Positions 36,969 to 51,803 of a stretch of DNA of 64,000 nucleotides are shown here, piece after piece. Within the stretch, counting starts at the first letter, position 1, and each line of letters opens with the position of its first letter. Under the pieces are notes generated by a model. It was not told where the DNA came from. It ran no database searches and worked only from the letters and a program-made list of their open reading frames with translations. The stretch is from Moorella thermoacetica (GTDB lineage Bacteria > Bacillota > DSM-521 > Neomoorellales > Neomoorellaceae): NCBI RefSeq assembly GCF_001267405.1, contig NZ_CP012369.1, positions 1,018,001-1,082,000 of the forward strand, in the 5' to 3' direction. A program made the position numbers and the translations under genes.

Positions 36969-38441
36969 TTAAGCCAGGTTTTCCCGGATCCACCTGGCGG
37001 CCCGGTCCAGGCGGGCGAGCACAGTTTCCCGGCCCAGGAGCTCCATAATCTCGAAGAGTCCTGGTCCCATGGTACGGCCGGAGATTGCCAGACGAGTGGG
37101 ATGGAATAACTGTCCTGTGCTTATCCCCTTACCTTCCGCTAGGGAACGATAGGCCTCCTCGGCTGCCTGGGCATTAAATTCAGGGAGGGTAGCTAGTCGT
37201 TCCCGCGCTTCATCCAGCAAAGCCGCAGCCCCGGGCCTGGTAAAGTGTTTACGAATCCCCTTTTCTTCATAATTGGTTACATCAGTAAAGAAGTAACTGG
37301 CGGCATCGGCAACCTCTGCCAGGGTCTTGACCCGGTCGCGGACGGCCGCGATAACGGAGCGGACATAGTTGTAATCCTTCTCGGGTAACGGGTCTGGTAG
37401 TAAACCTTTAGCCTGCAAAAAGGGTAGAGCCAGCCTGGTTATCCGGTCCAGATTGCCTTCTCGCAGGTAGTGGCCATTGATCCAGGTCAGTTTCTTAGTA
37501 TCATAAATGGCGGCGTTCTTGGATACCCGTTCCAGGGAAAATTGCTCGATTATTTTCTCCAGGGGGATAATCTCTTCCTCGCCTTCCGGCGACCAGCCCA
37601 GCAGGGCCAGGTAATTAATGATGGCTTCGGGTAAATACCCCTCATCCCTGTACTCCTCCACCGAAGTAGCCCCGTGGCGTTTACTCAGTTTGCTGCGATC
37701 AGGGGCCAGGATCATAGGTACATGGGCAAAGGCAGGCAGTTCATATGCCAGGGCCTGGTAAACCAAAATCTGCTTAGGGGTATTGGAGAGGTGCTCTTCA
37801 GCCCGGATGATATGGCTGATTTGCATTAAATGGTCATCGATTACCGTAGCAAAATTATAGGTGGGCATACCGTTGGACTTAAAAATAATAAAGTCGTCAA
37901 TGGTCGCATTTTCAAAGGCGACATCGCCGCGGATAAGATCCTTAACGACGGTTGTCCCAGTTTCCGGCACGGCCAGGCGGATGACAGGTTGCCTTCCTTC
38001 CTGTTCCAGGCGGGTCCTGTCGGCAGGAGTGAGGTAACGGCAGCGGCGGTCATACATGGGCGGTCGGCCTTCGGCCTGGGCCTGCCGGCGCCTTTCGGCC
38101 AGCTCTTCAACGGTACAGTAACACAAGTAGGCTTTACCCTCGTTCAACAAGCGGGCGGCCTCCCGGCGATAGAGTTCCAGGCGCTGGGACTGGAGGTAAG
38201 GCCCGAACTGGCCTCCCTTTTCCGGCCCTTCATCCCAATCCAGGCCCAGCCAGCCCATGGCCGCCAGGATTTCCTTATAAGAAGCTTCTGTGGATCGCTC
38301 GGTATCGGTATCATCGATCCGCAGGACAAAGGTACCGTTGTGGTGCCGGGCAAAAAGCCAGTTAAATAAAGCTGTGCGGGCGCCACCGATATGGAGGCTA
38401 CCAGTGGGACTGGGGGCAAAGCGAACCCGAACCTTATTCAA
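36969..38441 (-). CDS. gltX: Glutamyl-tRNA synthetase GltX
   Basis: This class I synthetase of 490 residues charges tRNA-Glu and, in many bacteria lacking GlnRS, also tRNA-Gln. The HIGH-type motif is in [19 protein letters not shown] near residue 9, KMSKS is [10 protein letters not shown] near residue 240, and Cys residues of a zinc-type site appear in YLCYC and DRRCRY. I choose TTG 38441, 10 nt after TAGGAG. A longer open frame to 38570 overlaps the glycosyltransferase gene and has no similarity to the family. It lies 13 nt downstream of the glycosyltransferase gene, next to tRNA-Gln. Confidence 0.93.
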
Positions 38442-38454
38442 GGTATCAACACTC

Positions 38455-39588
38455 CTATCCAAGTAACTCCTGGTATTGGTCTGCCAGGCGGCGGGCCATA
38501 GTCGCCGCCGCAAGGGAACTAGCATTAAGGCGTCCCTGCCGACCCATTTCCTTACGGAGGCCGGCATCAAGGACCAGTTGTCTTATACGGGCACTGAAGG
38601 TCTCAATATCTAAAGGGACTAAGAAACCATCCCGGCCGTCTTCTACCATTTCCTGCACTCCCCGGGCCCGTACGGCAACTACCGGTAAACCGGCAGCTTT
38701 AGCCTCCCCCACTACCAGGCCCTGGGTCTCGGTAACGGAGGCAAAGACAAATAAATCAGCGCCGGCATAGACGGCTGGCATTTGTTCAAAAGAAAAGGAA
38801 CCGGCAAAGGTAACCGCTTGGGCTATTCCCAGGGAATGGGCCTGGTGCTCTAACTCCCCCTTTAAGGGGCCACTACCTACCAGGACCAGACGGGTCGCCG
38901 GTACCTCGCCATGGATTTTAGCAAAGGCCTGGAGGACAAAAGAGATATTTTTTTCTTTGCCCAAACGGCCTACATGGAGAAGGATGATCTCTTCCCTTGG
39001 AAGCTGCAGGTGACGGCGCAACCAGCCAGTGTCAACATCCTGAAAACGTTCCAGCTCTATTCCTGTGGGAATGCTAACAACTGGTACTTTGAGCCCATTT
39101 TCCTGCAGGTAACGTGCTATAGTATCGGTAGGGGTAATTACCAGCCGGCAGCCGTTGTAAAAGGATAGAGTATAATTCCGGACAACCCGGCGCAGGAGCC
39201 CGGGAGCCAGGGGAAAGTAATGGATATATTCCTCATAAAGGGTGTGATAAGTAGCTACCAGGGGCAGACCCAAGCGGCGGGCCATTCTGACCCCCAACTG
39301 GCCCATCAAAAAGGGGGAATGTACGTGGATCAAATCGATTCCCAGCTGTCGTAAGGTATTGGTAAGGCCCGGCGCTACCGGGATGGCTAGGGCAAACTCT
39401 TTAAAGGTCGGCGCCCTGAAGGAACGAAAACGGTAGATATCCCTTTCAGGATCATGGTGACCATAAGCTGGGGCAAAGATTACCACCCTGTGTCCCAGGG
39501 CCCGGAGTTCCCTGCTGAAGGTAACTACCGATCTGACGACACCACTCGTATAGGGCAGGTAGCTATCGGTAAATATACCAATATGCAA
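38455..39588 (-). CDS. Glycosyltransferase family 4
   Basis: This 377-residue GT-B enzyme has the N-terminal [21 protein letters not shown] segment typical of lipid or mannosyl-type GT4 enzymes (PimA/diacylglycerol glucosyltransferase-like). The donor-binding domain carries [20 protein letters not shown] and the E-x7-E-type motif [19 protein letters not shown]. It probably transfers a nucleotide-sugar residue to a lipid at the inner membrane face; donor and acceptor are not determined. It precedes gltX closely and follows the CBS gene on the same strand. Confidence 0.87.
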
Positions 39589-39604
39589 TTAAGGATACCC
39601 CTCT

Positions 39605-40060
39605 CTAAGGGGTATTCCTGGCTACGGCCTGGACAATATCGTGGCGCCGTACCAGGCCCACCAGACGATCCTGACTGGTAATGGGTACCTGCTTTATTCT
39701 GTGGTCGGTCATTAAACCGGCAACTTCGGCGATTGTAGCTTCCTCGTTGGCCGTAATGACCTTACGGGTCATAATCTCCTTCACCGGCCTGGAGGTTAGG
39801 GTTTTAATCTTCGCATTTAGATCGCTGGTGTCTTCCAGGACAAAGACCGAGTTGAAAAGGTCTACGTATACCGGCCGCCGCTGGCGGATGGCAGCCATGA
39901 TATCACCATCGGTGACGATCCCCTGGAGCTTACCCTTTTGATCTACCACAACGGCGCAGGTAATGCCCTTCTCCAAAAAGAGTTTAACAACATCCCCTAC
40001 CGGGTCTTCCGGGTGGACCACTACCACATCGGTGGTCATAATATCCCTGGCCAGGATCAT
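39605..40060 (-). CDS. Tandem CBS-domain protein
   Basis: This protein of 151 residues is almost entirely two CBS motifs (MTTDVVVVHPEDPVGDVVKLF with LQGIVTDGDIMAA, and IMTRKVITANEEATIAEVAG with LVGLVRRHDIVQAVA). Such stand-alone pairs bind adenosine nucleotides and regulate other proteins. The partner is not evident; a HAD protein lies just upstream on the same strand and a CBS-ACT protein lies divergently. GGAGGGAG precedes the ATG. Confidence 0.85.
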   Translation of the reverse strand: MILARDIMTTDVVVVHPEDPVGDVVKLFLEKGITCAVVVDQKGKLQGIVTDGDIMAAIRQRRPVYVDLFNSVFVLEDTSDLNAKIKTLTSRPVKEIMTRKVITANEEATIAEVAGLMTDHRIKQVPITSQDRLVGLVRRHDIVQAVARNTP

Positions 40061-40092
40061 GGGTCTCCCTCCTTACTGAAGTTATTATAGCA

Positions 40093-40560
40093 CTATGGCC
40101 GTAAGGTAGCTACTACCCGCTTTGGTTTTAAGAGGAAATCCAGGGCCGCCAGGATATCGCTGAAAACAACGTCGGCAACCTGGAGGGCCCTGCCCGAGGA
40201 ACCCTCCGGCCCGAGGACAAGTAAACCCAAGGCGGCCCGGGTGAGCATCTGGACGTCGTTATTACCATTGCCAATGGCAGCCGTATGCTCTGCTCCCAGG
40301 CGGACCACCAGGCGCTCCTTGTCCTCTCCCCCTTGCAACTGGTCGACTTTCATTAACTGCACGGGGAGGTCCCGGCAGGCCAAAGCTGCCGTACCAAAGG
40401 TATCGGCCGTGAGGACGTAGAGTTTTACATCAGTGGCCAGGGCTTGCAGGCGCGGGGCTACCCCCGGAAGGAGTTCCCCATCGCAGGCTATGGTGCCGTT
40501 AAAATCCAAGACTACCTGGTTAATAATAATTTTTTGCCCCGGTAGAGCGTAAGCCAGCAT
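40093..40560 (-). CDS. HAD-superfamily protein (soluble P-type ATPase-like)
   Basis: This 155-residue protein of the COG4087 type has motif I as VVLDFNGTIACDG near residue 17, motif II as LTADTFG and the late acidic motif as IGNGNNDVQML. The second residue expected to be Asp in phosphatase motif I (DxD) is Asn here, as in P-type ATPase relatives, so ordinary phosphatase activity is doubtful. No membrane segment is present. It lies between two CBS-domain genes. It may be a regulatory phospho-aspartyl protein; that is inference. Confidence 0.8.
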   Translation of the reverse strand: MLAYALPGQKIIINQVVLDFNGTIACDGELLPGVAPRLQALATDVKLYVLTADTFGTAALACRDLPVQLMKVDQLQGGEDKERLVVRLGAEHTAAIGNGNNDVQMLTRAALGLLVLGPEGSSGRALQVADVVFSDILAALDFLLKPKRVVATLRP

Positions 40561-40670
40561 CTAGTCTCCCCCCCTCCAAAAATATTTATAATCTTCTCCC
40601 CGCGCCGGCAGGATTTATAAAGGGCTAACCGAAATAGATTCTTAGACCATTGACAAGGAGGTTGGTCAGG

Positions 40671-41315
40671 ATGTTTGTCCGGGACCATATGACTCCCGAC
40701 CCTATTACCGTTACCAAAGAGACATCTGTCCTGGATGCTCTGGAGCTAATGAAGAAAAATAAAATCCGGCGCCTCCCGGTGATCCAGGATGGACGCCTTA
40801 TCGGGCTAGTAACCGAACGTGATATCCTGAGGGTTTCACCCTCTCCTGCTTCCACCCTGAGTGTTTTTGAAGTTAACTACCTGGTTGCCAAGATGACCGT
40901 TAAGGACGCCATGATTAAACGCCCGGTTACCGTTCCCCCGGATATGACCATTGAAGAAGCAGCCCTTTTAATGCGGGAGCATAAGATTGATAACCTCCTG
41001 GTAATGGAAAAAGAGAGACTGGTGGGCATCATTACCCAGACTGATCTCTTCGAAGCCCTGATTAAACTCTTCGGCTTGCGACGGCCGGGTATCCGCCTGA
41101 CCCTGAAGGTAGTGGACCGCATCGGAGTCCTGGCTGATATTGCCCGGCTGGTCAAGGAGGCCGGCATCAACATTATCAATGTCGCTAACCGCCATAAAGA
41201 CGATATCTATACCTATGTTGTCCTGCGGCTGGCAACGGATGATGTGAGTAGTCTCCTGCCGGCCCTTGAAGACCGGGGTTACCAGGTTGTACATGTTAGT
41301 TCTTATAACGGCTAA
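40671..41315 (+). CDS. CBS-CBS-ACT protein (AcuB-like)
   Basis: This 214-residue protein has two CBS domains (residues 1-135; FVRDHMTPDPITV and VKDAMIKRPVTVP start them) followed by an ACT domain (about 145-214; IRLTLKVVDRIGVLADIARL). This is the AcuB-type architecture linked in other Firmicutes to acetoin or acetate metabolism; here the ligand is unknown. I choose ATG 40671, 10 nt after AAGGAGG, over TTG 40650, which lies upstream of the ribosome site. It is divergent from the HAD gene, sharing a 110-nt promoter region. Confidence 0.87.
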   Translation: MFVRDHMTPDPITVTKETSVLDALELMKKNKIRRLPVIQDGRLIGLVTERDILRVSPSPASTLSVFEVNYLVAKMTVKDAMIKRPVTVPPDMTIEEAALLMREHKIDNLLVMEKERLVGIITQTDLFEALIKLFGLRRPGIRLTLKVVDRIGVLADIARLVKEAGINIINVANRHKDDIYTYVVLRLATDDVSSLLPALEDRGYQVVHVSSYNG

Positions 41316-41356
41316 AGCCCTTCACTATTTAAATCCCAGTTAGCGGGAACTCTATT

Positions 41357-41379
41357 ACGGCCTTAAGGGGCCGTTTTTT
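41357..41379 (+). terminator. Terminator of the CBS-ACT gene
   Basis: ACGGCC and GGCCGT pair over 6 bp around TTAAGG, followed by six T residues. It overlaps the nrdJ stop codon on the other strand. Confidence 0.85.
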
Positions 41380-43675
41380 AACCGCATTTACTGAAACCGC
41401 AGCTACAGGTAACACAACCTTCCTGGAAATAGAGGGTTGAGCCACATTCGGGGCAGATACCCCTGGCGATAAGCTCGGCCTCCTCGGCGGCGCTCAGGGG
41501 ATTTAGAACCGGAGTCGCAGCATCGGCGGTGGCACTAATTTCGGCCAGGGCTTTATCGCTGAAATCGGGAGGTACCTGATAGGGACCGTGGTCGTGCCAG
41601 TTTTTCAACTCCCGGGCCAGGACGCGGCCGATGATATCCGGGCAAGACTTGCCAATTATACTTTTATCGGTGGCCCGGCGGCGTAAAAAGTTAGGACAAC
41701 TGACGGAAGTAAGCTGGTCGATTATGGCCTCCGGGGCGATGTTGGCCCGCAGGGCCAGGGAAATAAGCCGGCTGACACCTTCGGTAAAACCACTGCAGCC
41801 GCCGGAGGAACCGGTGGTGGCAAAGGTTTCGATTAAACCTTCACGATCATAATTGACGGTAATGTACATTTTACCGCATCCGGTCTTCACCTGCTCGGTG
41901 ACACCACAGGTACGCTTGGGCCGCGGCCGGGGATAGGTTTTCTCCCTGGCCGGTTCCCTATCCCTGACAGGTTTATTTTTAGCCCCTGTAATCAGGACCT
42001 CCTTTTCCCGGCTGCCGGAGCGGTAAACGGTAACGCCTTTGCATCCCAGCTGATAGGCCAGTTCATAGGCTCGGCGCACATCCTCCCTGGTGGCCTCGGA
42101 GGGGAAGTTAACTGTTTTGGAAACGGCGTTATCAGTACTGGCCTGGAAGGCTGCTTGCATACGTATATGCCATTCCGGGCTGATCTCCAGGGCGGTAACA
42201 AACACCCGGCGCATCTCCGGCGGGATATATTCAATTTCACTAACCCTGGCACCGGCGGCGATGCGATTAAAAATCGACCGGGCTTGTTCCGGAGGAAAGT
42301 TTTCTTCGACATAAGCCTGGAAAACAGGATTTACTTCTACCAGGCTGGCCCCGTCCAGTACGTTTTTGGTATAAGCCAGGGCAAAGACAGGTTCAATACC
42401 CGAAGTGGTGCCGGCAATCATACTGATGGTACCGGTCGGGGCAATGGTGGTGCAGGTGGCGTTGCGGAGCTGTTGCCCCCGGTAAATGCTTTTATCAATG
42501 TTCGGGAAGCTGCCTCGCTCGCCCGCCAGATCCCGGGAAGCTCCATGGGCCTCCTTCTGGATAAAGGCCATAACTTTACGGCCCAGTTCCACGGCTTCTT
42601 CGGAATCGTAGGGTAGCCGGAGCTGGAAGAGCATATCGGCCCACCCCATGACCCCCAGGCCGATCTTGCGATTTCCTCGGACCATGACGCTAATCTTTTC
42701 CAGGGGGAACTCATTAATCTCAATGACATTGTCCAGGAAGCGTACCGCCAGGCGGACCGTATCGGCCAGCTTGTCCCAGTTAACTCCCCCATCCCGGACC
42801 ATATTAGCCAGGTTCACGGAGCCAAGGTTACAGGCCTCGTAGGGGAGGAGCGGTTGTTCACCACAGGGGTTGGTAGCCTCGATTTCGCCCAGCTCGGGGG
42901 TGGGATTATCCTCATTGAGGCGGTCCAAAAAGATGATGCCCGGCTCCCCGTTCGCCCAGGCATGGTTGACAATCTCGGCAAATACCTCTTGCGCTTTTAA
43001 CCTTTGATACACCCGGCCTTCGAATTTTAGTTCATAGTAATCGTCCCGGGCCAGGGCGTCCATGAATTCCCTGGTCAGGCCTACAGAGATGTTAAAGTTA
43101 GTCAGTTCATTGTTATTTTCTTTGCAGGAGATAAACTCCAGGATGTCTGGGTGATCAACCCGCAGGATGCCCATGTTGGCCCCCCGTCTGGTCCCTCCCT
43201 GCTTAATGGCTTCGGTGGCAGCATTAAAGACCTTCATAAAGGACACAGGACCAGAGGCGACACCGCCGGTGGAGCGGACAGGACTGTTCTTGGGACGCAG
43301 ACGGCTAAAGGAAAAGCCTGTCCCTCCCCCGCTCTTATGAATCAGGGCCGCATCCTTCACAGCCGTAAAAATGGCATCCATGCTGTCATCCACGGGTAAC
43401 ACAAAACAAGCCGAGAGTTGGCCCAGCTCCCGGCCGGCATTCATCAAGGTCGGGCTGTTGGGGAGAAAGTCCCAACTGGTCATGAGCCGGTAGAAGCGGT
43501 CGGCATATTCTTCCACCTGAGCTTCTGTGAGGGCGGGATTAAAAATCCTTTCGGCCCCTGCCACTGCTGCTGCTACCCGGCGGAACATCTCTTCCGGTGT
43601 TTCCACCGGAACGCCGTTTTCTTTCTTCAGGTAGCGTTTTTCGAGGATAGTCCGGGCATTGTCGGTAATTTTCAT
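41378..43675 (-). CDS. nrdJ: Adenosylcobalamin-dependent ribonucleotide reductase (class II)
   Basis: This 765-residue enzyme makes deoxyribonucleotides using adenosylcobalamin, the product of the operon at the left of the window. Family features are NSPTLMNAGRELGQLSACFVLP near residue 75, the active-site set NPCGEQPLLPYEACNLGSVNL, CTTIAPTGTISMIAGTTSGI and the C-terminal zinc-ribbon-like CPECGSTLYFQEGC with CSCGFSKCG. I place the start at ATG 43675, 4 nt after GGTGGAG; the ATG 15 nt upstream has no ribosome site. Three DnaA-box-like sequences lie 35-64 nt upstream. Confidence 0.94.
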   Translation of the reverse strand: MKITDNARTILEKRYLKKENGVPVETPEEMFRRVAAAVAGAERIFNPALTEAQVEEYADRFYRLMTSWDFLPNSPTLMNAGRELGQLSACFVLPVDDSMDAIFTAVKDAALIHKSGGGTGFSFSRLRPKNSPVRSTGGVASGPVSFMKVFNAATEAIKQGGTRRGANMGILRVDHPDILEFISCKENNNELTNFNISVGLTREFMDALARDDYYELKFEGRVYQRLKAQEVFAEIVNHAWANGEPGIIFLDRLNEDNPTPELGEIEATNPCGEQPLLPYEACNLGSVNLANMVRDGGVNWDKLADTVRLAVRFLDNVIEINEFPLEKISVMVRGNRKIGLGVMGWADMLFQLRLPYDSEEAVELGRKVMAFIQKEAHGASRDLAGERGSFPNIDKSIYRGQQLRNATCTTIAPTGTISMIAGTTSGIEPVFALAYTKNVLDGASLVEVNPVFQAYVEENFPPEQARSIFNRIAAGARVSEIEYIPPEMRRVFVTALEISPEWHIRMQAAFQASTDNAVSKTVNFPSEATREDVRRAYELAYQLGCKGVTVYRSGSREKEVLITGAKNKPVRDREPAREKTYPRPRPKRTCGVTEQVKTGCGKMYITVNYDREGLIETFATTGSSGGCSGFTEGVSRLISLALRANIAPEAIIDQLTSVSCPNFLRRRATDKSIIGKSCPDIIGRVLARELKNWHDHGPYQVPPDFSDKALAEISATADAATPVLNPLSAAEEAELIARGICPECGSTLYFQEGCVTCSCGFSKCG

Positions 43676-43709
43676 TTCTCCACCATCCATAATATGACAT
43701 CAATAGAAG

Positions 43710-43739
43710 TTATCTACAATGTTATCCACTTTATCCACT
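43710..43739. promoter_or_regulatory. Cluster of three DnaA-box-like 9-mers upstream of nrdJ
   Basis: TTATCTACA (43710), TTATCCACT (43722) and TTATCCACT (43731) each differ from TTATCCACA by one base. All have the same orientation, with start spacings of 12 and 9 nt. They occupy the short gap between the kinase stop and the nrdJ start. Confidence 0.6.
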
Positions 43740-43750
43740 GGTTCCAGTTT

Positions 43751-44455
43751 TTAAGATGCAGGTAAATGGATGCTGAAACAACTCCCCTCTCCCACTTTAC
43801 TTTTAACCTTTATTTTACCACCATGGCCCTTGATGATACGGTTGCTTAAGGTTAAACCCAGGCCGGTGCCATTTTCCTTGGTGGTATAAAAGGGCTCAAA
43901 AATTAGCTTGAGCTGATCCGGGAGGATCCCGGGACCAGTATCACTAATGGTGGTAACTACCTCCTTCGCTTTTTTATCTAAATAACAGCAGACGGTTACC
44001 TTGCCCCCCGGACCGGCAGCGTGGAGGGCGTTGGAAGTGAGGTTCAGGATCACCTGTTTAATCTGGGCGGGATCCAGGCATAAAAGGGGCAGATCATGGG
44101 CCAGGTGTTGCTCCAGTTTTACTTCATTCATGATGGCTTCCTGCTCCGCCAGGAGTAAAGCCTCGGTCACCAGCTGGTCGAAGGATACTATCTGCAACTG
44201 GGGTTGAGAGGGTTTGGACAGGGAAAGGAATTCCTTAATAATATTATTTATGCGATCGAGTTCGTCCAGCATGATTTCGAAGTATTCCTGTTCTGGTGCC
44301 CCGGGGTCGTATTTACTCCGGAGTAATTGGAGAAACCCCCTGATAGAAGTCAAGGGATTACGGATTTCATGGGCCATACCAGCGGCCAGTTCACCGATGA
44401 TGGCCAGCTTTTCTGTTAGATATTCCCGATCTTCTTCCGGAAAGGAATAAACCAT
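43751..44455 (-). CDS. Soluble sensor histidine kinase, sporulation/NtrB type
   Basis: This 234-residue kinase consists of HisKA plus HATPase_c only. The phospho-acceptor His lies in GMAHEIRNPLTSIRGF near residue 28. NLTSNALHAAGPGG, DTGPGILPDQLKLIFEPFYTTK and GTGLGLTLSNRIIKGHGG complete the ATP site. No membrane span or PAS domain is present, so the input must come from a partner or the N-terminal 20 residues. The core resembles the KinA-E/NtrB group that feeds Spo0F in spore formers; that role is inference. The ribosome site GAGAGG lies just before the ATG. Confidence 0.85.
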   Translation of the reverse strand: MVYSFPEEDREYLTEKLAIIGELAAGMAHEIRNPLTSIRGFLQLLRSKYDPGAPEQEYFEIMLDELDRINNIIKEFLSLSKPSQPQLQIVSFDQLVTEALLLAEQEAIMNEVKLEQHLAHDLPLLCLDPAQIKQVILNLTSNALHAAGPGGKVTVCCYLDKKAKEVVTTISDTGPGILPDQLKLIFEPFYTTKENGTGLGLTLSNRIIKGHGGKIKVKSKVGEGSCFSIHLPAS

Positions 44456-44532
44456 GATCCTCTCACTCCCTGGAACTCGGCCTGAAAAATATTAGTTCCA
44501 CACCATGTTCAATTTCTCCTTCCCGGTGATTA

Positions 44533-47262
44533 TCATTCAGCTACTTTTTGTCCCATCTCCTGGAGGACCTGCTCCAGCTTTTTCAGGTTTTCCCCGTAAC
44601 CGGCCCAATCACCCTGTTTTAGCCTGTCCTGGGCTTCGCTATAGAGGCGGTTGGCTTCTTTGATGAGTTCCGACAGGTTACCTGGGCTGCCTGTTGCAGC
44701 CTGGGATGGCGGTTGAGGACTGGCGGCGGGTGCAGGTGTCTGGGTACCGAAGATGACCTGCAGGGCCCCGGCCAGGGTGTCGGCCATGGCTATTTTTTCT
44801 TCGTAAGCAACTACCACCTGGCGCAGTTCAGGTAATTTACTTTCCTGGGCCTGGAGGAAGATTGGCTCTACATAAAGCAGGGAGCCTTTAATGGGGATTA
44901 CCAGAAGATTCCCCCGGATGACCTGGGAGCCATGCTGGTCCCAGAGGGTTAGCTGCTGGGAGATACGCGGTTCCTGGTCGATACGGGCTTCGACCTGCAT
45001 AGGGCCATAAATAGAGCGGTTTTTAGGGAACTGGTATAACAAAAGCTGGCCGTAATGGGGACCATCATTGCGGGCTGCTAGCCAGGCTATCATATTGACC
45101 TTACGGGCTGGTGTAAAGGGAAGCATTAAGATATACTCCGCCTGTGTTTCCCCGGGTAAACGCATCAGGGTGTAATAGGGATCCATGGCCTGGCGTTTAT
45201 CGCCGACCATTTCCTCAGCTATACTCCAGGCATCCTCTTTGTTATAAAAAAGCATGGTGTTTTCCATATGGTAGTTAGTCAACATCTGGGCCTGGATGCT
45301 TAAAAGGTCGGGGGGATAACGCAGGTGCTGCTGCAGCCCGGCCGGCATGTCTTCCCGGGGCTTGAATAGCCCGGGGAAAATTCTGGCCAGGGTTTGGGCC
45401 AGGGGGTCTCCCGGGTCAACAAGATAGTAGTCAACACTACCGTTATAAGCATCGATAACCACCTTGACAGAGTTGCGAATATAATTGAAGCCGCCGCTGT
45501 TTGGTTCGGAATAGGGATACATATTAGTAATGGTATAGGCGTCTAGGAACCAGTAAAGGCGGCCCCCGGCAACAACCAGGTAGGGATCAGCGTCATAGCG
45601 CAAATAGGGCATGATCTTCCGCACCCGTTCCTGGATATTGCGGTAATAGAGTATCTTACTCTGGGGAGTTAGCCCGTTGCTCATCAGCAGCCGGTAATCG
45701 TGAAAGCGAAAAGCGAAGACCAGCCGCCGCCAGGGAGTATTAATGGGAACCCCGCCTCTTCCCTGATATCGGGTTTCAACGAAATTATCTTCTCCCGTGA
45801 CAGGGTAATCAAATTCAGCTGCCGTACCGCCGGTAATGACATAATCACCGGTCAGTTCACCGTAATAGATCCGGGGCTCATTAACCTGGAGGCCGGCACT
45901 GCTGTGAAAGGGCAGGTCGCCGGCGATAAACTCCGGCTGGCCGCCGGCAGTAACGGTGTTGGCCGGGTTCATGGCCAGACCGTAGCCGTGGGTATAGCGC
46001 ATTTTTTCGTTGATCCACGTCCGGGCCCGGTCAGGCAATTTGTTCTGGTCCAGTTCCCGGGCCGCCAGCATGACCTGCCGCTCCCTGCCATCCAGGGTGT
46101 AGCGGTCGACATCGATATCCTTAAAACTATAATAAGAACGGATCTCCTGGAGCTGGCTGTAGGTTTGCTCCAGGGGTCGGTAATCCCACAGGCGGATGTT
46201 GTCCAGGGTGGCCCCTTCTTCCCTCAGACTGGCGGGGGTCAAGTTGTCCAGAGCCGGGAATTCCTGGATGGTGATCCTGTCCAGTCCATAGGCCCGGCGG
46301 GTAAAGTTAATATTATAGCGCAGGTAGGGCTCCTCCCGGGCGAACTCGTTGGGCTCGACCTGGAATTTTTGCACTGCCAGGGGTACAGCTATCACCAGCA
46401 GGAAATAGGCGGCCATAAAGGATAGAATACCGGCACTGACTAGCTTTAGGTTACGGCGAAAGGCGTTAAGGACAATAATCAGGCCGCAGGCTACGGCTAC
46501 CCATCCCAGGATGTTATAGCCAGGAAGGAGGGCGTGGATATCGGTATAGCTGGCGCCGAAGGCCACACCCCGGGATGATCGAACCAGATCAAGGGCCTGC
46601 AAGCGGAACCCCCAGGCTTGAATTAGAAAGAGTAGGGCTACCAGGGTGGAAAAATGGACCAGAGGACGGGAAAAATGGCCCCGCCGCAGGCCCAGGAGCT
46701 CCCGCGGGTTAAAGATGAAGTAGAAGAAGCCGGTGACCAGGACGGCCCCAACCACAGCCGTTATCAGCAATTTATAGAGAAAATGGTAAAGGGGCAGTTT
46801 AAAGATATAGAAACTAACATCCCTGCCAAAAAGGGGATCGGCAAGGCCGAAGGGGGTGGCCCTGAGGTACTCCTGGACCACCAGCCACTTACCGGCGGCC
46901 AGGGGGCTGAAGATGAGGGCCCCCGCCAGGCTTAGTAAAAGATACAGGATACCCAAACGCCTGCTGGTAATAAAACGGTCGATGAGGTATTCCTTTAAAG
47001 TCCAATTTTCCCGCCCTTCAGGAGGCGATAGGTGGAGGCTTTTACGGGTAAAAAGGAGGTTTAGATAAAAGAAAAGGAAGAAAAAGGCTATAGTCCCCAG
47101 GCGTATTCCCACTTCCGATAGCAACCGGGTAAGGAAGACCTGGCGGTAGCCCACTTCGGCAAACCAGTACCAGTCGGTCAGGAAGTGGGAGCCCAGGTAG
47201 GCTGCGACCAGGAAGCCCGGGATTATAATTAAAAGACAGAACCATAAACGATTTAATTTCAT
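44533..47262 (-). CDS. UPF0182 family large membrane protein
   Basis: This 909-residue protein belongs to the UPF0182 family. The first 290 residues hold about seven hydrophobic segments, with FGRDVSFYIFKLPLYHFL and YNILGWVAVACGLIIVL among them. The large remainder is presumably extracytoplasmic and includes RYNINFTRRAYGLD, MRYTHGYGLAMNP, NTPWRRLVFAFRF and DPYYTLMRLPGE, well-conserved family blocks. A Pro/Ala/Ser-rich linker precedes a short C-terminal coiled helix. The function is unknown; the gene shares its direction with nrdJ and the kinase. Confidence 0.9.
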   Translation of the reverse strand: MKLNRLWFCLLIIIPGFLVAAYLGSHFLTDWYWFAEVGYRQVFLTRLLSEVGIRLGTIAFFFLFFYLNLLFTRKSLHLSPPEGRENWTLKEYLIDRFITSRRLGILYLLLSLAGALIFSPLAAGKWLVVQEYLRATPFGLADPLFGRDVSFYIFKLPLYHFLYKLLITAVVGAVLVTGFFYFIFNPRELLGLRRGHFSRPLVHFSTLVALLFLIQAWGFRLQALDLVRSSRGVAFGASYTDIHALLPGYNILGWVAVACGLIIVLNAFRRNLKLVSAGILSFMAAYFLLVIAVPLAVQKFQVEPNEFAREEPYLRYNINFTRRAYGLDRITIQEFPALDNLTPASLREEGATLDNIRLWDYRPLEQTYSQLQEIRSYYSFKDIDVDRYTLDGRERQVMLAARELDQNKLPDRARTWINEKMRYTHGYGLAMNPANTVTAGGQPEFIAGDLPFHSSAGLQVNEPRIYYGELTGDYVITGGTAAEFDYPVTGEDNFVETRYQGRGGVPINTPWRRLVFAFRFHDYRLLMSNGLTPQSKILYYRNIQERVRKIMPYLRYDADPYLVVAGGRLYWFLDAYTITNMYPYSEPNSGGFNYIRNSVKVVIDAYNGSVDYYLVDPGDPLAQTLARIFPGLFKPREDMPAGLQQHLRYPPDLLSIQAQMLTNYHMENTMLFYNKEDAWSIAEEMVGDKRQAMDPYYTLMRLPGETQAEYILMLPFTPARKVNMIAWLAARNDGPHYGQLLLYQFPKNRSIYGPMQVEARIDQEPRISQQLTLWDQHGSQVIRGNLLVIPIKGSLLYVEPIFLQAQESKLPELRQVVVAYEEKIAMADTLAGALQVIFGTQTPAPAASPQPPSQAATGSPGNLSELIKEANRLYSEAQDRLKQGDWAGYGENLKKLEQVLQEMGQKVAE

Positions 47263-47335
47263 GCCGAATCCTCCTGCAGGGTTGTCCTCTATATTTCGTC
47301 ATGGAGCAAGGGTATTCCTCCCTCCCCTCCTCATA

Positions 47336-47373
47336 AAAGAAAAACGCCCCGCCATCATTCCCAGGTCCGGGGC
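47336..47373 (-). terminator. Terminator after ddl
   Basis: On the minus strand GCCCCG and CGGGGC pair over 6 bp around a 16-nt loop, followed by GTTTTTCTTTT. Confidence 0.75.
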
Positions 47374-47449
47374 AAATCAGACGTCCATGCAGCCAGGCGG
47401 CATTAGCAGAGGATAAAAATGGTACTGATATACTATTTTCAGGTTGGTT

Positions 47450-48379
47450 TCAAGGCTCCAGGGCCAGGTCGACGATTTTCTGGACCAGATCCGGAAAATC
47501 CAATCCTGCCGCCCGGGCGGCGTCCGGTACCAGGCTGGTGGCGGTCATCCCCGGGACGCTATTGACTTCAATGACCTGGGGCTCCCGGCCCCCCGCCACG
47601 ATAAAATCCACCCGGGCGAAACCGCGGCAACCCAGGAGGGCATAGGTCCGGCCGGCCAGGGAGGTAGCTGCTGCCAGGACGTCATCCGGCAATCGGGGCG
47701 GGATAATATGATCACTCAGGCCGGGGGTGTACTTGGCCTGATAATCATAAAAGCCGGTATGGGAGACGATTTCTATTAAAGGCAAGACCTGGGGTTTCCG
47801 GTTCCCCAGGACGGCAGCCGTGATCTCCGGGCCTGCCAGGTAGGCTTCGGCCATAAAGGAAAGGTCATATTTCAGGGCCCCGGCTATGGCCGGCTCCAGT
47901 TCCCCTTCTTCCCTGACGATAAAGGTGCCAATGGTGGAACCCTGGGTCGGGGCCTTAATGACCACCGGCAAACCTAGTTCCTTTAATATCGCCGCCTTTA
48001 TCTCTTTCTTGCCGGTGGCGTATTCAGCACCGGTCCAGGCTAAAAATTTGGGGGTGGGGATACCGGCCTGGAGCAGGACGCGTTTAGTCATAATTTTATC
48101 CATTGTTATGGCACTGGCCAGGACGCGGCTGCCAGTATAAGGCAGGCCCAGGACCTCCAGCAGGCCCTGGACAGAACCGTCTTCCCCGGGTTTACCGTGG
48201 AGGGCGTTAAAGACAACGTCGGGGGCGAAGTTTTTTAACCTGGCTACTACCTCCCTGTTCAGATCTATAGTTATCACCTGGTGACCCAGGCCGGACAGGG
48301 CGGCGGCAACGGCAGACCCGCTTTTTAAAGAAATCTCCCTTTCGGAAGAGGGGCCACCCATTAGGACGGCAATTTTCAT
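47450..48379 (-). CDS. ddl: D-alanine--D-alanine ligase
   Basis: This 309-residue ATP-grasp enzyme makes D-Ala-D-Ala for peptidoglycan. GGPSSEREISLKSG at residue 8, NALHGKPGEDGSVQG, PVVIKAPTQGSTIG, RVDFIVAGG and EVNSVPGMTATSLVP are all in place. Its ATG overlaps the stop of the PHP gene as ATGA, so the two are co-translated. Confidence 0.95.
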   Translation of the reverse strand: MKIAVLMGGPSSEREISLKSGSAVAAALSGLGHQVITIDLNREVVARLKNFAPDVVFNALHGKPGEDGSVQGLLEVLGLPYTGSRVLASAITMDKIMTKRVLLQAGIPTPKFLAWTGAEYATGKKEIKAAILKELGLPVVIKAPTQGSTIGTFIVREEGELEPAIAGALKYDLSFMAEAYLAGPEITAAVLGNRKPQVLPLIEIVSHTGFYDYQAKYTPGLSDHIIPPRLPDDVLAAATSLAGRTYALLGCRGFARVDFIVAGGREPQVIEVNSVPGMTATSLVPDAARAAGLDFPDLVQKIVDLALEP

Positions 48380-49260
48380 CTTAAAAATGAGACCTCCCCA
48401 GGGGAAATATTGGCGCCCGGCGGTTGGTGCTTACTTAACCCGGCCAGCATGGCAGCAGAAATACCCATGGTCCCAAGTGCCACCGGCGCATATAGGCCAT
48501 GAAAATCAGTACCGCCGGTTATCAGGAGGTGGCGTTCCTTGGCCAGGCGGTAGTAGGAATGGATTAACTCCCGGCGTTTACTCCCTAGATAATAATAGAA
48601 TACTTCCAGGCCGTCAATGCCCTCTTCCAGGATGCAATTGACCAGGGTATCATCATTGATTAGGCCGGGATGGGCCAGCACGCTTATCCCCCCGGCTGCA
48701 TGGATCAGGGCTACAGCTCTGGGTAAGGGATTACCTTCGTAAGGAATGTAGGCCAGACCTCCAGGTCCCAGGTAGCGACGCAGGAATTCAATGGTTTTTT
48801 CCTGGTTGTCGATATAACCGCAATGTCTTAGAACCTGGAGGATATGGTTTTTCCCCAGGACACCCCCGGGGGGAATCAGGGCCTCAACCTGTTCCCAGCT
48901 GATATTAAAACCAAGGTTTTGCAGGCGGCGAATAACCTGGCGGGCAATTATCCGGCGCTCCCGGCGGATTTCCTCCAGGGCGGAGGCCAGTACCGGGGCC
49001 GTGGGGTCGAAATTATAGCCCAGGAGGTGGATTTCCCGCCCCCGGAAGCTGGTGACCATCTCAATACCGGGGAGGAGCTCCAGGCCGAGTTCCCGAGCCT
49101 GGTTGTACACCTGGATATAACCGGAAAGGCTTTCGTGATCGGTAAAACTAAGGGCCTTGAGACCTTTCTGCCTGGCAAGCTCCAGGATTGCTGCCGGCGC
49201 CAGGCTACCGTCCGAGGCCAGGGTGTGGATGTGGAGGTCGGCATAGACCAAAGACAACAC
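48376..49260 (-). CDS. PHP-domain phosphoesterase
   Basis: This 294-residue metal-dependent enzyme of the PHP family resembles YciV/TrpH-type 3',5'-nucleoside bisphosphate phosphatase/5'-3' RNase. Metal ligands appear in YADLHIHTLASDGS, FTDHESLSGY, LLPGIEMVTSFRGREIHLLGY, VLAHPGLI and ITGGTDFHG. The substrate is inferred from family knowledge. It is coupled to ddl downstream. The start is close to the start of the D-L-H-I-H-T motif, as in the family; GTG or TTG codons around 49260-49263 are both possible. Confidence 0.87.
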   Translation of the reverse strand: MLSLVYADLHIHTLASDGSLAPAAILELARQKGLKALSFTDHESLSGYIQVYNQARELGLELLPGIEMVTSFRGREIHLLGYNFDPTAPVLASALEEIRRERRIIARQVIRRLQNLGFNISWEQVEALIPPGGVLGKNHILQVLRHCGYIDNQEKTIEFLRRYLGPGGLAYIPYEGNPLPRAVALIHAAGGISVLAHPGLINDDTLVNCILEEGIDGLEVFYYYLGSKRRELIHSYYRLAKERHLLITGGTDFHGLYAPVALGTMGISAAMLAGLSKHQPPGANISPGEVSFLR

Positions 49261-49357
49261 CTCGAGATACTTGACATTATATCTATATTCGCCTTATGTC
49301 AAAAGAAACCTGCCTGATGATAAATCCGGTTATATTTTACTGAGTGATCGCGATGTC

Positions 49358-49386
49358 TTGACTCTAGGCAGTAAAGGGTTTATAAT
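49358..49386 (+). promoter_or_regulatory. Strong SigA-type promoter of tRNA-Trp
   Basis: TTGACT and TATAAT are 17 nt apart, 11 nt before the tRNA 5' end. Confidence 0.85.
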
Positions 49387-49397
49387 AAAGTTGCTGT

Positions 49398-49473
49398 AGG
49401 GGTGTAGCTCAACTGGTAGAGTAGCGGTCTCCAAAACCGTTGGTTGCGGGTTCGAGCCCTGCCACCCCTGCCA
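49398..49473 (+). tRNA. tRNA-Trp (anticodon CCA)
   Basis: The cloverleaf is complete: acceptor AGGGGTG/CACCCCT with G-CCA encoded, anticodon arm GCGGT/ACCGT with loop CTCCAAA giving anticodon CCA, and T arm GCGGGTTCGAGCCCTGC. It has 76 nt. This is probably the only tRNA for UGG. Confidence 0.95.
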
Positions 49474-49577
49474 TAAAAAATTGGATTTTCAAGTGTTGTA
49501 GGGTTTTGGATGGCGTAGCTTCCACCTACGCCATCCAAACTGCAAACAAACCGCAAACAACTGCATTTTAGAGTTCG
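49474..49577. other. Non-coding stretch with 14-bp hairpin and GCAAACAA direct repeats
   Basis: TTTGGATGGCGTAG (49505-49518) and CTACGCCATCCAAA (49526-49539) are perfect complements around a 7-nt loop. Directly after lie two near-copies of GCAAACAA, 11 nt apart. No gene is visible. The position next to a tRNA 3' end resembles an integration-site scar, but no integrase is present. Confidence 0.45.
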
Positions 49578-49605
49578 CCAGCTTGAGAAAGCTGGTTTTC
49601 TTTTT
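49578..49605 (+). terminator. Terminator downstream of tRNA-Trp
   Basis: CCAGCTT and AAGCTGG form a 7-bp stem around GAGA, followed by TTTTCTTTTTG. Confidence 0.85.
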
Positions 49606-49717
49606 GCCCTAATTTCTCCCTCTCTGCTCCGCTTAAATTTCCCCATTCCATACCCCTGGTTAGCATTGGCCAATTCATACCGATACTGTCGCCTACACTT
49701 TGAGCTTATTGAGTAAA

Positions 49718-49737
49718 GCCCCCTCCGTAGAGGGGGC
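49718..49737 (-). terminator. Terminator of the EF-G-like gene
   Basis: GCCCCCTC and GAGGGGGC form a perfect 8-bp stem around a 4-nt loop; on the minus strand TTTAC follows. It lies 23 nt after the stop codon. Confidence 0.8.
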
Positions 49738-49760
49738 AATGGTACTGGTAGACTTCTTCG

Positions 49761-51803
49761 TTACTCTTCCTTTTTAGCTTTAGCCTGCTGGATGATCTTC
49801 TCAGCAATGCTGGCCGGGACCTCTTCGTACTGGGCAAAATCCATTTTAAAGTGGCCGCGGGCCTGGGTGATGGACTTCAAGTCAATAGCGTAACGGTACA
49901 TTTCTGCCAGGGGAACCTGGGCGCGGATGACCTGGTTTTTACCCTGGGGTTCCATACCCAGGATACGGCCGCGGCGGCTGTTTAAATCGCCCATAATGTC
50001 GCCCATAAACTGTTCAGGTACCGTTATCTCCACGTTCATTATGGGCTCAAGCAACACCGGTTTGGCCTGTTCTACTGCTTTGCGGAAGGCCAGGCCGGCA
50101 GCAACCTTGAAAGCCATTTCAGAGGAGTCAACCGGGTGGTAAGAACCGTCGGCCAGGTTGACCTTGATATTAGTCACCGGGTAGCCGGCCAGGATGCCTT
50201 CCTGCATGGCCTCGCGGATACCCTTCTCAACCGCCGGGATATACTGGCGCGGCACGGCGCCGCCGAAGATGGTCTCGGTGAATTCAAATTCCTTATCCGG
50301 CAGGGGAGCCATGTCGATAAAGACGTGGCCGTACTGGCCGTGGCCGCCCGTTTGTTTTTTATGCTTACCTTCTATATGGTTAACTGCGGCGCGAATGGTT
50401 TCCCGGTAAGGTACTGTGGGGGTGCTCATTTCCACCTCCACGCCAAATTTGCGCTGCAGCCGTTCCAGGGTGATATCCAGGTGGGATTCTCCCATTCCGG
50501 TGAGGATGGTTTCCCTGGTCTCGGTATTTTTGTTCAGGCGCAGGGTGGGGTCTTCCTCCAGCAACCGCGCCAGGGCGTTGCTGAGTTTATCTTCATCGCC
50601 CTTGCTCTTAGGTTTGATGGCCACCGGCAGGGTCGGTTCCGGGAAGTCAATACCTTTCAGGCGGACCGGGTTGGCTTTGGTGGTAAGGGTGTCACCGGTG
50701 GTGGTAACCTGGAGTTTGGCTATAGCTCCTATATCCCCTGGTTTCATCTCCGTGACCGGCAGCTGGTTTTTGCCCTGGAGGGAGAAGAGCTGGCCGATTT
50801 TTTCCTCGCTTTCCCGGTTGACGTTGTAGACCGTGGAGTCGGATTTCAGAACGCCGCTATAGACCCGGAACATGCTTAATTTACCAACATAGGGATCGGC
50901 TATGGTCTTAAATACCAGGGCAGCCAGGTTCTCACCCTCGAGGGCGGCGGCATCCTTGCCGGTAGCTTCAACGGGGGAAGGTAGGTAGTTTATTATATAG
51001 TCCAGGACGGGTTTGACAGCCATATTCTTCCAGGCTGAGCCGCAGAGAACAGGAATGGCCTTGCCTTCGGCAACGGCTTTTTTCAAGCCGGAGCGGATTT
51101 CTTCGCTGGAAAGTTCTTTTCCGTCCAGGTATTTCATCAGCAGTTCATCATCGCCTTCGGCAGCAGCTTCAATCAAGGCTTCCCGCAGGCTGGCAACCTC
51201 ATCGGCATATTCCGCCGGAACTGGTATCTCTTTTTCACTGCCGTTATCGTAGGTATAGGCCTTTTGGTTGAGGATATCGATAATTCCGGTAAAGTTTTCC
51301 GCCTCGCCTATGGGCAACTGGACAGGGACTATATGGCCGCTCAAACGCTCTCGCATCGATTCCACAGCTTTCTGGAAATTGGCGTTCTCCCGGTCCATTT
51401 TATTTACATAGGTGATCCGCGGCAGATGATGATTGTCCGCCGTTTCCCATACAACCTCTGTCTGGACCTCTACCCCGGCCACAGCGCTAACTACTACCAG
51501 CAGACTATCTACCACCCGCAGGGCGCCTACCACCTCGCCAAAGAAGTCACTGTAACCGGGGGTATCCAGTAGATTTATCTTATTATCCTGCCACTCGGCC
51601 ACGGCCAATGCGGAGTTGGTAGTAACCTTGCGCTTAATTTCTTCGGGAAGGTAGTCGGTTACAGTATTACCCTCGTCAACCCGCCCCAGGCGTTTGGTAG
51701 CACCGGCGTTATAAAGGAGCGCTTCCGTCAGGCTGGTCTTACCGGCACCGCCGTGGGCGACTATAGCTACGTTCCTGATGCTGGTACTGGGGTAAACCTT
51801 CAT
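49761..51803 (-). CDS. Elongation factor G paralogue (EF-G-like, type II)
   Basis: This translational GTPase has 680 residues, a little shorter than the main EF-G. G1 is AHGGAGKTSL near residue 15 (canonical EF-G has AHIDAGKTT), G3 is LLDTPGYSDF and G4 is YVNKMDRENANF. Domains III-V are recognisable from ETRETILTGMGESHLDI and GRILGMEPQG. The altered G1 and the lone location outside the str operon point to the second EF-G group, whose role is less clear than that of FusA. The ribosome site is GAGGAGGGC. Confidence 0.9.
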   Translation of the reverse strand: MKVYPSTSIRNVAIVAHGGAGKTSLTEALLYNAGATKRLGRVDEGNTVTDYLPEEIKRKVTTNSALAVAEWQDNKINLLDTPGYSDFFGEVVGALRVVDSLLVVVSAVAGVEVQTEVVWETADNHHLPRITYVNKMDRENANFQKAVESMRERLSGHIVPVQLPIGEAENFTGIIDILNQKAYTYDNGSEKEIPVPAEYADEVASLREALIEAAAEGDDELLMKYLDGKELSSEEIRSGLKKAVAEGKAIPVLCGSAWKNMAVKPVLDYIINYLPSPVEATGKDAAALEGENLAALVFKTIADPYVGKLSMFRVYSGVLKSDSTVYNVNRESEEKIGQLFSLQGKNQLPVTEMKPGDIGAIAKLQVTTTGDTLTTKANPVRLKGIDFPEPTLPVAIKPKSKGDEDKLSNALARLLEEDPTLRLNKNTETRETILTGMGESHLDITLERLQRKFGVEVEMSTPTVPYRETIRAAVNHIEGKHKKQTGGHGQYGHVFIDMAPLPDKEFEFTETIFGGAVPRQYIPAVEKGIREAMQEGILAGYPVTNIKVNLADGSYHPVDSSEMAFKVAAGLAFRKAVEQAKPVLLEPIMNVEITVPEQFMGDIMGDLNSRRGRILGMEPQGKNQVIRAQVPLAEMYRYAIDLKSITQARGHFKMDFAQYEEVPASIAEKIIQQAKAKKEE

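Follow-up and report, generated by a model that had tools for sequence, protein, structure and literature searches.

Sequence comparison suggests that in Moorella thermoacetica and some relatives the supply of DNA precursors is coupled to DnaA, which starts chromosome replication. Three DnaA-box-like nonamers of one orientation upstream of nrdJ, the gene of a class II ribonucleotide reductase, probably form a cooperative DnaA operator controlling this gene, a reading to which we give a probability of roughly 0.65. From the comparisons below we infer DnaA binding, an effect on nrdJ, its sign and its cell-cycle logic. The triad lies in a 64,000-nucleotide stretch of the M. thermoacetica genome, referred to as the window; the genome (G000) is a single contig of 2,527,564 bases, and its NrdJ is 98% identical in Moorella thermoacetica DSM 21394.

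The triad and the gap before nrdJ

Consistently with an earlier note on this DNA, which had described three DnaA-box-like nonamers in one orientation, all three were found on the plus strand (Table 1), antisense to nrdJ; across families the starts are 0, 12 and 20–21 nt apart. The note had also named the gene as a B12-dependent ribonucleotide reductase, in agreement with the scores of its product, 1146.9 bits to NF006417 (cut-off 961) and 713.2 bits to TIGR02504 (cut-off 399.95), and with its Pfam domains PF02867, PF00317 and PF12637. Its description of the boxes as filling the gap before nrdJ had to be corrected: the likely start of nrdJ is 43675 (ATGAAAATTACC), preferred over the first ATG at 43690 because loci L007 and L008 have the 43675 start only, without the 43690 ATG, and the gap from the histidine kinase gene to this start (43676–43750) measures 75 nt, of which the boxes occupy 30. 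At Rfam gathering scores, no known RNA or riboswitch was found before nrdJ, and this explanation was discarded, the only match within 38000–50000 being a tRNA (49398–49470).

Table 1 Features of the nrdJ region in the window
Feature	Position	Strand	Remarks
DnaA box 1 of the triad	43710..43718	+	TTATCTACA; nearest nrdJ; one mismatch to TTWTNCACA
DnaA box 2	43722..43730	+	TTATCCACT; one mismatch (T at position 9); 12 nt from box 1
DnaA box 3	43731..43739	+	TTATCCACT; one mismatch; 21 nt from box 1
Whole triad	43710..43739	-	AGTGGATAAAGTGGATAACATTGTAGATAA on the nrdJ strand; proposed DnaA operator
nrdJ, B12-dependent class II ribonucleotide reductase	41378..43675	-	Alternative start 43690
Histidine kinase gene (HisKA + HATPase_c)	43751..44455	-	Direct upstream neighbour; membership of the element not implied
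UPF0182 gene	44533..47262	-	Immediately upstream of nrdJ in G023 and G058

Perfect TTWTNCACA sites are absent from the window (shuffle mean 2.5), and its only two exact TTATCCACW sites both lie within the triad. Sites with at most one mismatch to TTATCCACW number 26, against a shuffle mean of 20.4, and 26 was reached by 9 of 100 shuffles, so that single one-mismatch boxes are not clearly enriched. The non-random feature is clustering at fixed spacing: the spaced-triad pattern has a single match in the 2.53-Mb genome, the one at nrdJ, and across the phylum it has 56 sites in 55 of 398 genomes, at least 14 of them at nrdJ, compared with none for the reversed control pattern. A chance cluster of box-like words would fit the unremarkable number of one-mismatch boxes in the window; it is contradicted by the 56 matches against 0, by shuffles of the nrdJ upstream regions and by the poor conservation of the flanks (both below). 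We consider it extremely improbable and rejected it on the reversed pattern and the shuffled-region scores.

Conservation upstream of nrdJ

The layout was scored as three TTWTNCACA boxes at offsets 0, 12 and 20 or 21 (24 informative positions) in 110 nrdJ upstream regions of up to 800 nt each, from 106 genomes and 56 families. These regions were drawn partly from the 238 genomes with a match and took in part of those 238; one of them (G028, 26 nt) was too short for a triad score, and the score is not blind for the genomes that had been seen before the layout was defined. The scores fell into two separate groups, with 1–3 mismatches in 20 of the 110 regions, 4–6 in none and at least 7 in 89. 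On the sense strand the layout never scored below 7 mismatches, and none of 2180 shuffles had 4 or fewer, the lowest value, 5, occurring 3 times. Conservation of the boxes in relatives, which the earlier note had proposed as a check, was thus found as the same spaced triad in 20 regions from five families. It precedes 14 of the 16 main nrdJ genes of the window's family (f1; not found at those of G011 and G015) and all three of f3, the sister family in the window's order. The remaining families contribute one genome each (G023 of f5, G058 of f40 and G129 of f35), and the triad was not found at nrdJ of G053, the other f35 genome scored; the orders of G058, G129 and G023 hold 3, 3 and 1 genomes, and the divergent nrdJ genes L323 and L324 lie outside the scan. 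A spacing-free scan, asking for three same-orientation boxes with at most one mismatch each within 36 nt, recovered the same spacing in f3 and G129. Several DnaA boxes conserved upstream of the gene, as expected of a DnaA-regulated ribonucleotide reductase of the nrdAB type, are therefore present at nrdJ.

In genomes of the same genus the triad recurs as AGTGGATAAAGTGGATAANNNTGTAGATAA (nrdJ strand) with constant inner spacing, and in other genera its variation stays within the DnaA-box consensus: box 1 reads TTATCCACA in G019, G023 and G058 and CTATACACA in G012, and box 2 is a perfect TTATCCACA in G012, G014, G016 and G017. Box 3 starts 21 nt from box 1 in the window and 20 nt from it in the other four triad families. 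Across eight aligned f1 genomes, 20 of the 30 columns of the triad do not vary, versus 1 of 45 non-coding flank columns (0 of 11 upstream, 1 of 34 between triad and start codon), and all 20 triad genomes have GTGGA at the triad end on the nrdJ strand. From the triad end to the start codon there are 14 nt in G014 and G017, 26 in G016, 34 in most Moorella and 44 in G009; outside f1 the interval is 91 nt in G023, 103 in G058, 343 in G129 and about 440–705 in f3. Among named loci, 7 of the 79 scored (of 80) carry the triad (five Moorella, one Thermanaeromonas and one unclassified Clostridia bacterium), with NrdJ proteins 78–98% identical, and the next-best locus has 6 mismatches; since several named loci are the same assemblies as genomes of our set, they are extra names and not independent cases.

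Four further observations concern the nrdJ genes themselves and their surroundings. Diverged second nrdJ-like genes, present in two genomes of the genus (G001:C2:468412-471405 and G005:C7:73393-76383, about 60% identical), are without the triad. In G011, whose nrdJ lacks it, a near-perfect triad (G011:C67:6508-6535, L133; 1 mismatch) sits beside a HAD-like gene, a relative of which (40093–40560) sits close to nrdJ in the window. Several nrdJ frames of 1145–1178 residues have their homology broken near residue 270 (L137 of G019, G001, G003, G004, G006, G008 and G009). That of G019 (1150 residues) has an intein-like insert beginning CVTGDTW and ending HN before C, and the window's nrdJ is without it.

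The conserved stretch might instead be mainly the nrdJ core promoter, with a −35 element in box 3, a −10 element in box 1 and the DnaA-box likeness as a by-product. Sigma-70-like pairs matching at 9–10 of 12 positions with a 16-nt spacer do lie inside the triad in G019, G023 and G058, and in G014 a pair matching at 10 of 12 (TTAACA-18-TAAAAT) runs into it. However, box 2, the would-be spacer, is as conserved as boxes 1 and 3, the triad stands 343–705 nt upstream of nrdJ in f3 and G129, and matches of at least 9 of 12 near the triad (spacers 16–19 nt) are present in only 8 of the 20 genomes, which makes this explanation improbable. One conserved promoter overlapping the triad was rejected on the 12 genomes without a match and because the match in G000 and G005 leaves almost no leader.

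The triad stays with nrdJ while the neighbouring genes change. The window and G012 both have UPF0182, histidine kinase, triad and nrdJ in this order, and G023 and G058 have UPF0182, triad and nrdJ. UPF0182 lies upstream of nrdJ in f1, f5 and f40 and had no match in G019, G020 and G021 (f3) or in G129; in G019 and G129 the larger upstream gene reads as an FAD oxidoreductase, and a small gene separates the triad from nrdJ. Conversely, in each of the five genomes checked (G105, G067, G062, G136 and G130) UPF0182 stands beside nrdJ and the triad is missing. A link of the triad to UPF0182 rather than to nrdJ was therefore rejected, since the two dissociate in both directions.

The same layout at other loci

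Among the matches listed for the triad pattern there are 30 loci, 11 at nrdJ and 19 elsewhere. Seven of the latter lie just after tsaD, 3 near comF/hpf, 3 at other places, and the remaining 6, all in family f100, upstream of an oligopeptidase-like gene. Gene names at the other triads (tsaD, comF, hpf, oligopeptidase, FAD oxidoreductase, cold-shock gene, cyclo-ligase) come from reading the translations. With a looser score, the window genome has two more triads of the 0/12/21 layout, one between comF and a cold-shock gene with 2 mismatches (G000:C1:223081-223110; L072:1582-1611) and one beside a 5-formyl-THF cyclo-ligase gene with 1 mismatch (G000:C1:2139532-2139561; L076:1533-1562); other families of the phylum also have triads at matching gene neighbours.

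Downstream of gcp (tsaD) B. subtilis has one of its strongest DnaA-binding regions, and the gcp/ydiF cluster binds DnaA strongly with a 16-fold preference for ATP, which is probably set by spacing and orientation, the regions being too few to define the features (PMC4447404). The position of this cluster is orthologous to that of the seven triads after tsaD, and nothing speaks more strongly for taking the layout as a set of DnaA binding sites than this match to a DnaA-bound position. The nrdJ triad differs from gcp/ydiF in lying on the 5' side of a gene and near the terminus.

The recurrence of the layout brings in the main alternative, in which the triad is a DnaA-titration cluster like the DnaA-box clusters of B. 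subtilis or E. coli datA, placed beside nrdJ by history, that influences when initiation occurs by way of free DnaA and hardly affects nrdJ. Such a role deserves weight: non-nrd loci carry this triad as well, after tsaD, close to comF/hpf and at other places, including the two additional sites in the window genome, and removal of six clusters in B. subtilis leads to early initiation (PMC5295017). The nrdJ triad is indeed a DnaA-box cluster outside oriC. The clusters of that study are oriC-proximal according to its title (PMC5295017), whereas nrdJ, at 1.06 Mb of a 2.53-Mb genome, is remote from dnaA (position 128), unlike the other two triads, which makes it a poor fit to titration near the origin; the triad also keeps to the 5' side of nrdJ despite changes of the upstream gene. 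We regard titration as unlikely, although well ahead of a chance origin.

Other DnaA-box-like sites were noticed in the course of the comparison. Pairs between yabQ-like and divIC-like genes (G000:C1:89258, L073:1559-1577; L135:1547-1566 of G016) may mark a further conserved DnaA-box site. In Moorella, the region preceding dnaA (L070, L071; L078–L081) contains TTATCCCCA-type words and not the perfect TTATCCACA, which G016 and G017 have, so that canonical origin boxes are not obvious there. Two sites directly follow nrdG of the class III reductase (G000:C1:1385983-1386022; L074:1584-1623), and no triad was found at this nrdG, the best score being at least 7.

NrdR boxes and a model of DnaA control

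NrdR is the usual dATP-sensing repressor of ribonucleotide reductase genes. A search for nrdR (TIGR00244) found none in the 22 genomes of the window's order, G000 included (G007 is 58% and G006 84% complete); it was present in 30 of 39 genomes outside this order, including G023 and G058, and in 12 of 15 further genomes, including G129. The scan for NrdR boxes covered 108 regions longer than 100 nt, with an NrdR-box consensus and a 15–16 bp gap, the latter from PMC12176259, and a box pair was called at 24/32 or above (shuffle maximum 21). Such pairs stand at the same place as the triad, upstream of nrdJ, in 24 of the 108 regions, namely in 0 of 20 regions with the triad versus 24 of 88 others (Fisher p = 0.006, kinship uncorrected); the best score among the 20 triad genes was 19. 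The pair differs from the triad in motif and regulator, and the 5 triad families and 15 NrdR-box families do not overlap among the families sampled. The triad and NrdR boxes thus look like alternatives at nrdJ. NrdR boxes in the window's nrdJ gap were rejected: the best pair in G000 scores 17/32, below the threshold of 24, and the genome, with neither a box pair upstream of nrdJ nor a TIGR00244 match, falls outside an NrdR regulon. With no NrdR found in the window's order, the triad is the one operator-like element that could be recognised at nrdJ there.

The triad did not arise simply through loss of nrdR. A strict link was rejected, since G023, G058 and G129 have both and three f49 genomes (G067, G105 and G170) have neither. 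More tentatively, and with the odds somewhat against it, DnaA may have replaced NrdR as the operator-bound regulator of nrdJ in the window's order, by way of a portable three-box module that doubles as a standard DnaA-box cluster of the phylum.

The DnaA of the window species scores 596.8 bits to TIGR00362, and its DNA-binding domain IV aligns with the solved DnaA structures 8BTG, 1J1V and 3PVP and keeps the RQ and GRDHTTV segments, the residues of which we take to contact the box. In the DnaA-operator reading, DnaA, most likely in its ATP form, would assemble as a short oligomer on the three same-orientation boxes and control nrdJ transcription, with repression the likelier sign. Transcription of nrdJ would be kept low while free DnaA is high and released when free DnaA drops after initiation. 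Repression is favoured because in f1 the triad ends 14–44 nt before the start codon, covering or abutting the room for a promoter, and overlap with RNA polymerase would point to DnaA as a repressor; given regulation, we judge this sign somewhat more probable than activation.

Several features weigh against a DnaA operator. None of the window's three boxes matches the consensus perfectly. Boxes 2 and 3 abut, and in the other four triad families they overlap by one base, so that occupying both at once may be difficult. The distance from triad to nrdJ ranges from 14 to about 705 nt, no more than 8 of the 20 genomes show a promoter-like match (9 of 12 or better) close to the triad, and nrdJ is without the triad in 2 of 16 f1 genomes (G011 and G015) and 1 of 2 of f35 (G053). 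It coexists with nrdR in G023, G058 and G129, and the layout also occurs at loci without evident gene control.

The DnaA-linked ribonucleotide reductase genes of B. subtilis are presumably class Ib, and the primary papers on the proposed DnaA regulation are said to be Goranov 2005 and Breier 2009 (DnaA association). Control by DnaA is established for E. coli nrdAB, which is repressed at high DnaA-ATP and activated by DnaA-ADP or low DnaA-ATP, and a regulatory role of DnaA has also been proposed for the ribonucleotide reductase genes of B. subtilis and Caulobacter (C. crescentus) (PMC8203912). Like nrdJ here, E. coli nrdAB (class Ia) has three DnaA boxes in its promoter region (PMC8203912). It differs in being a B12-dependent class II gene at an unrelated position; moreover, NrdR also binds E. 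coli nrdAB (PMC12176259), whereas the window's order yielded no nrdR. Here nrdJ is the gene compared. The Caulobacter case concerns nrdAB, unlike the class II nrdJ. A search of the open-licence literature found no report of DnaA control of a class II reductase or nrdJ.

Fixed-spacing DnaA-box triads such as those collected here would form a set for probing the spacing rules of DnaA binding. If DnaA does control nrdJ, the coupling of DNA-precursor supply to the initiator would have arisen more than once, and a compact regulatory switch would be available in an acetogen; if DnaA has also replaced NrdR, the dNTP supply of these bacteria would be set by free DnaA and not by dATP.
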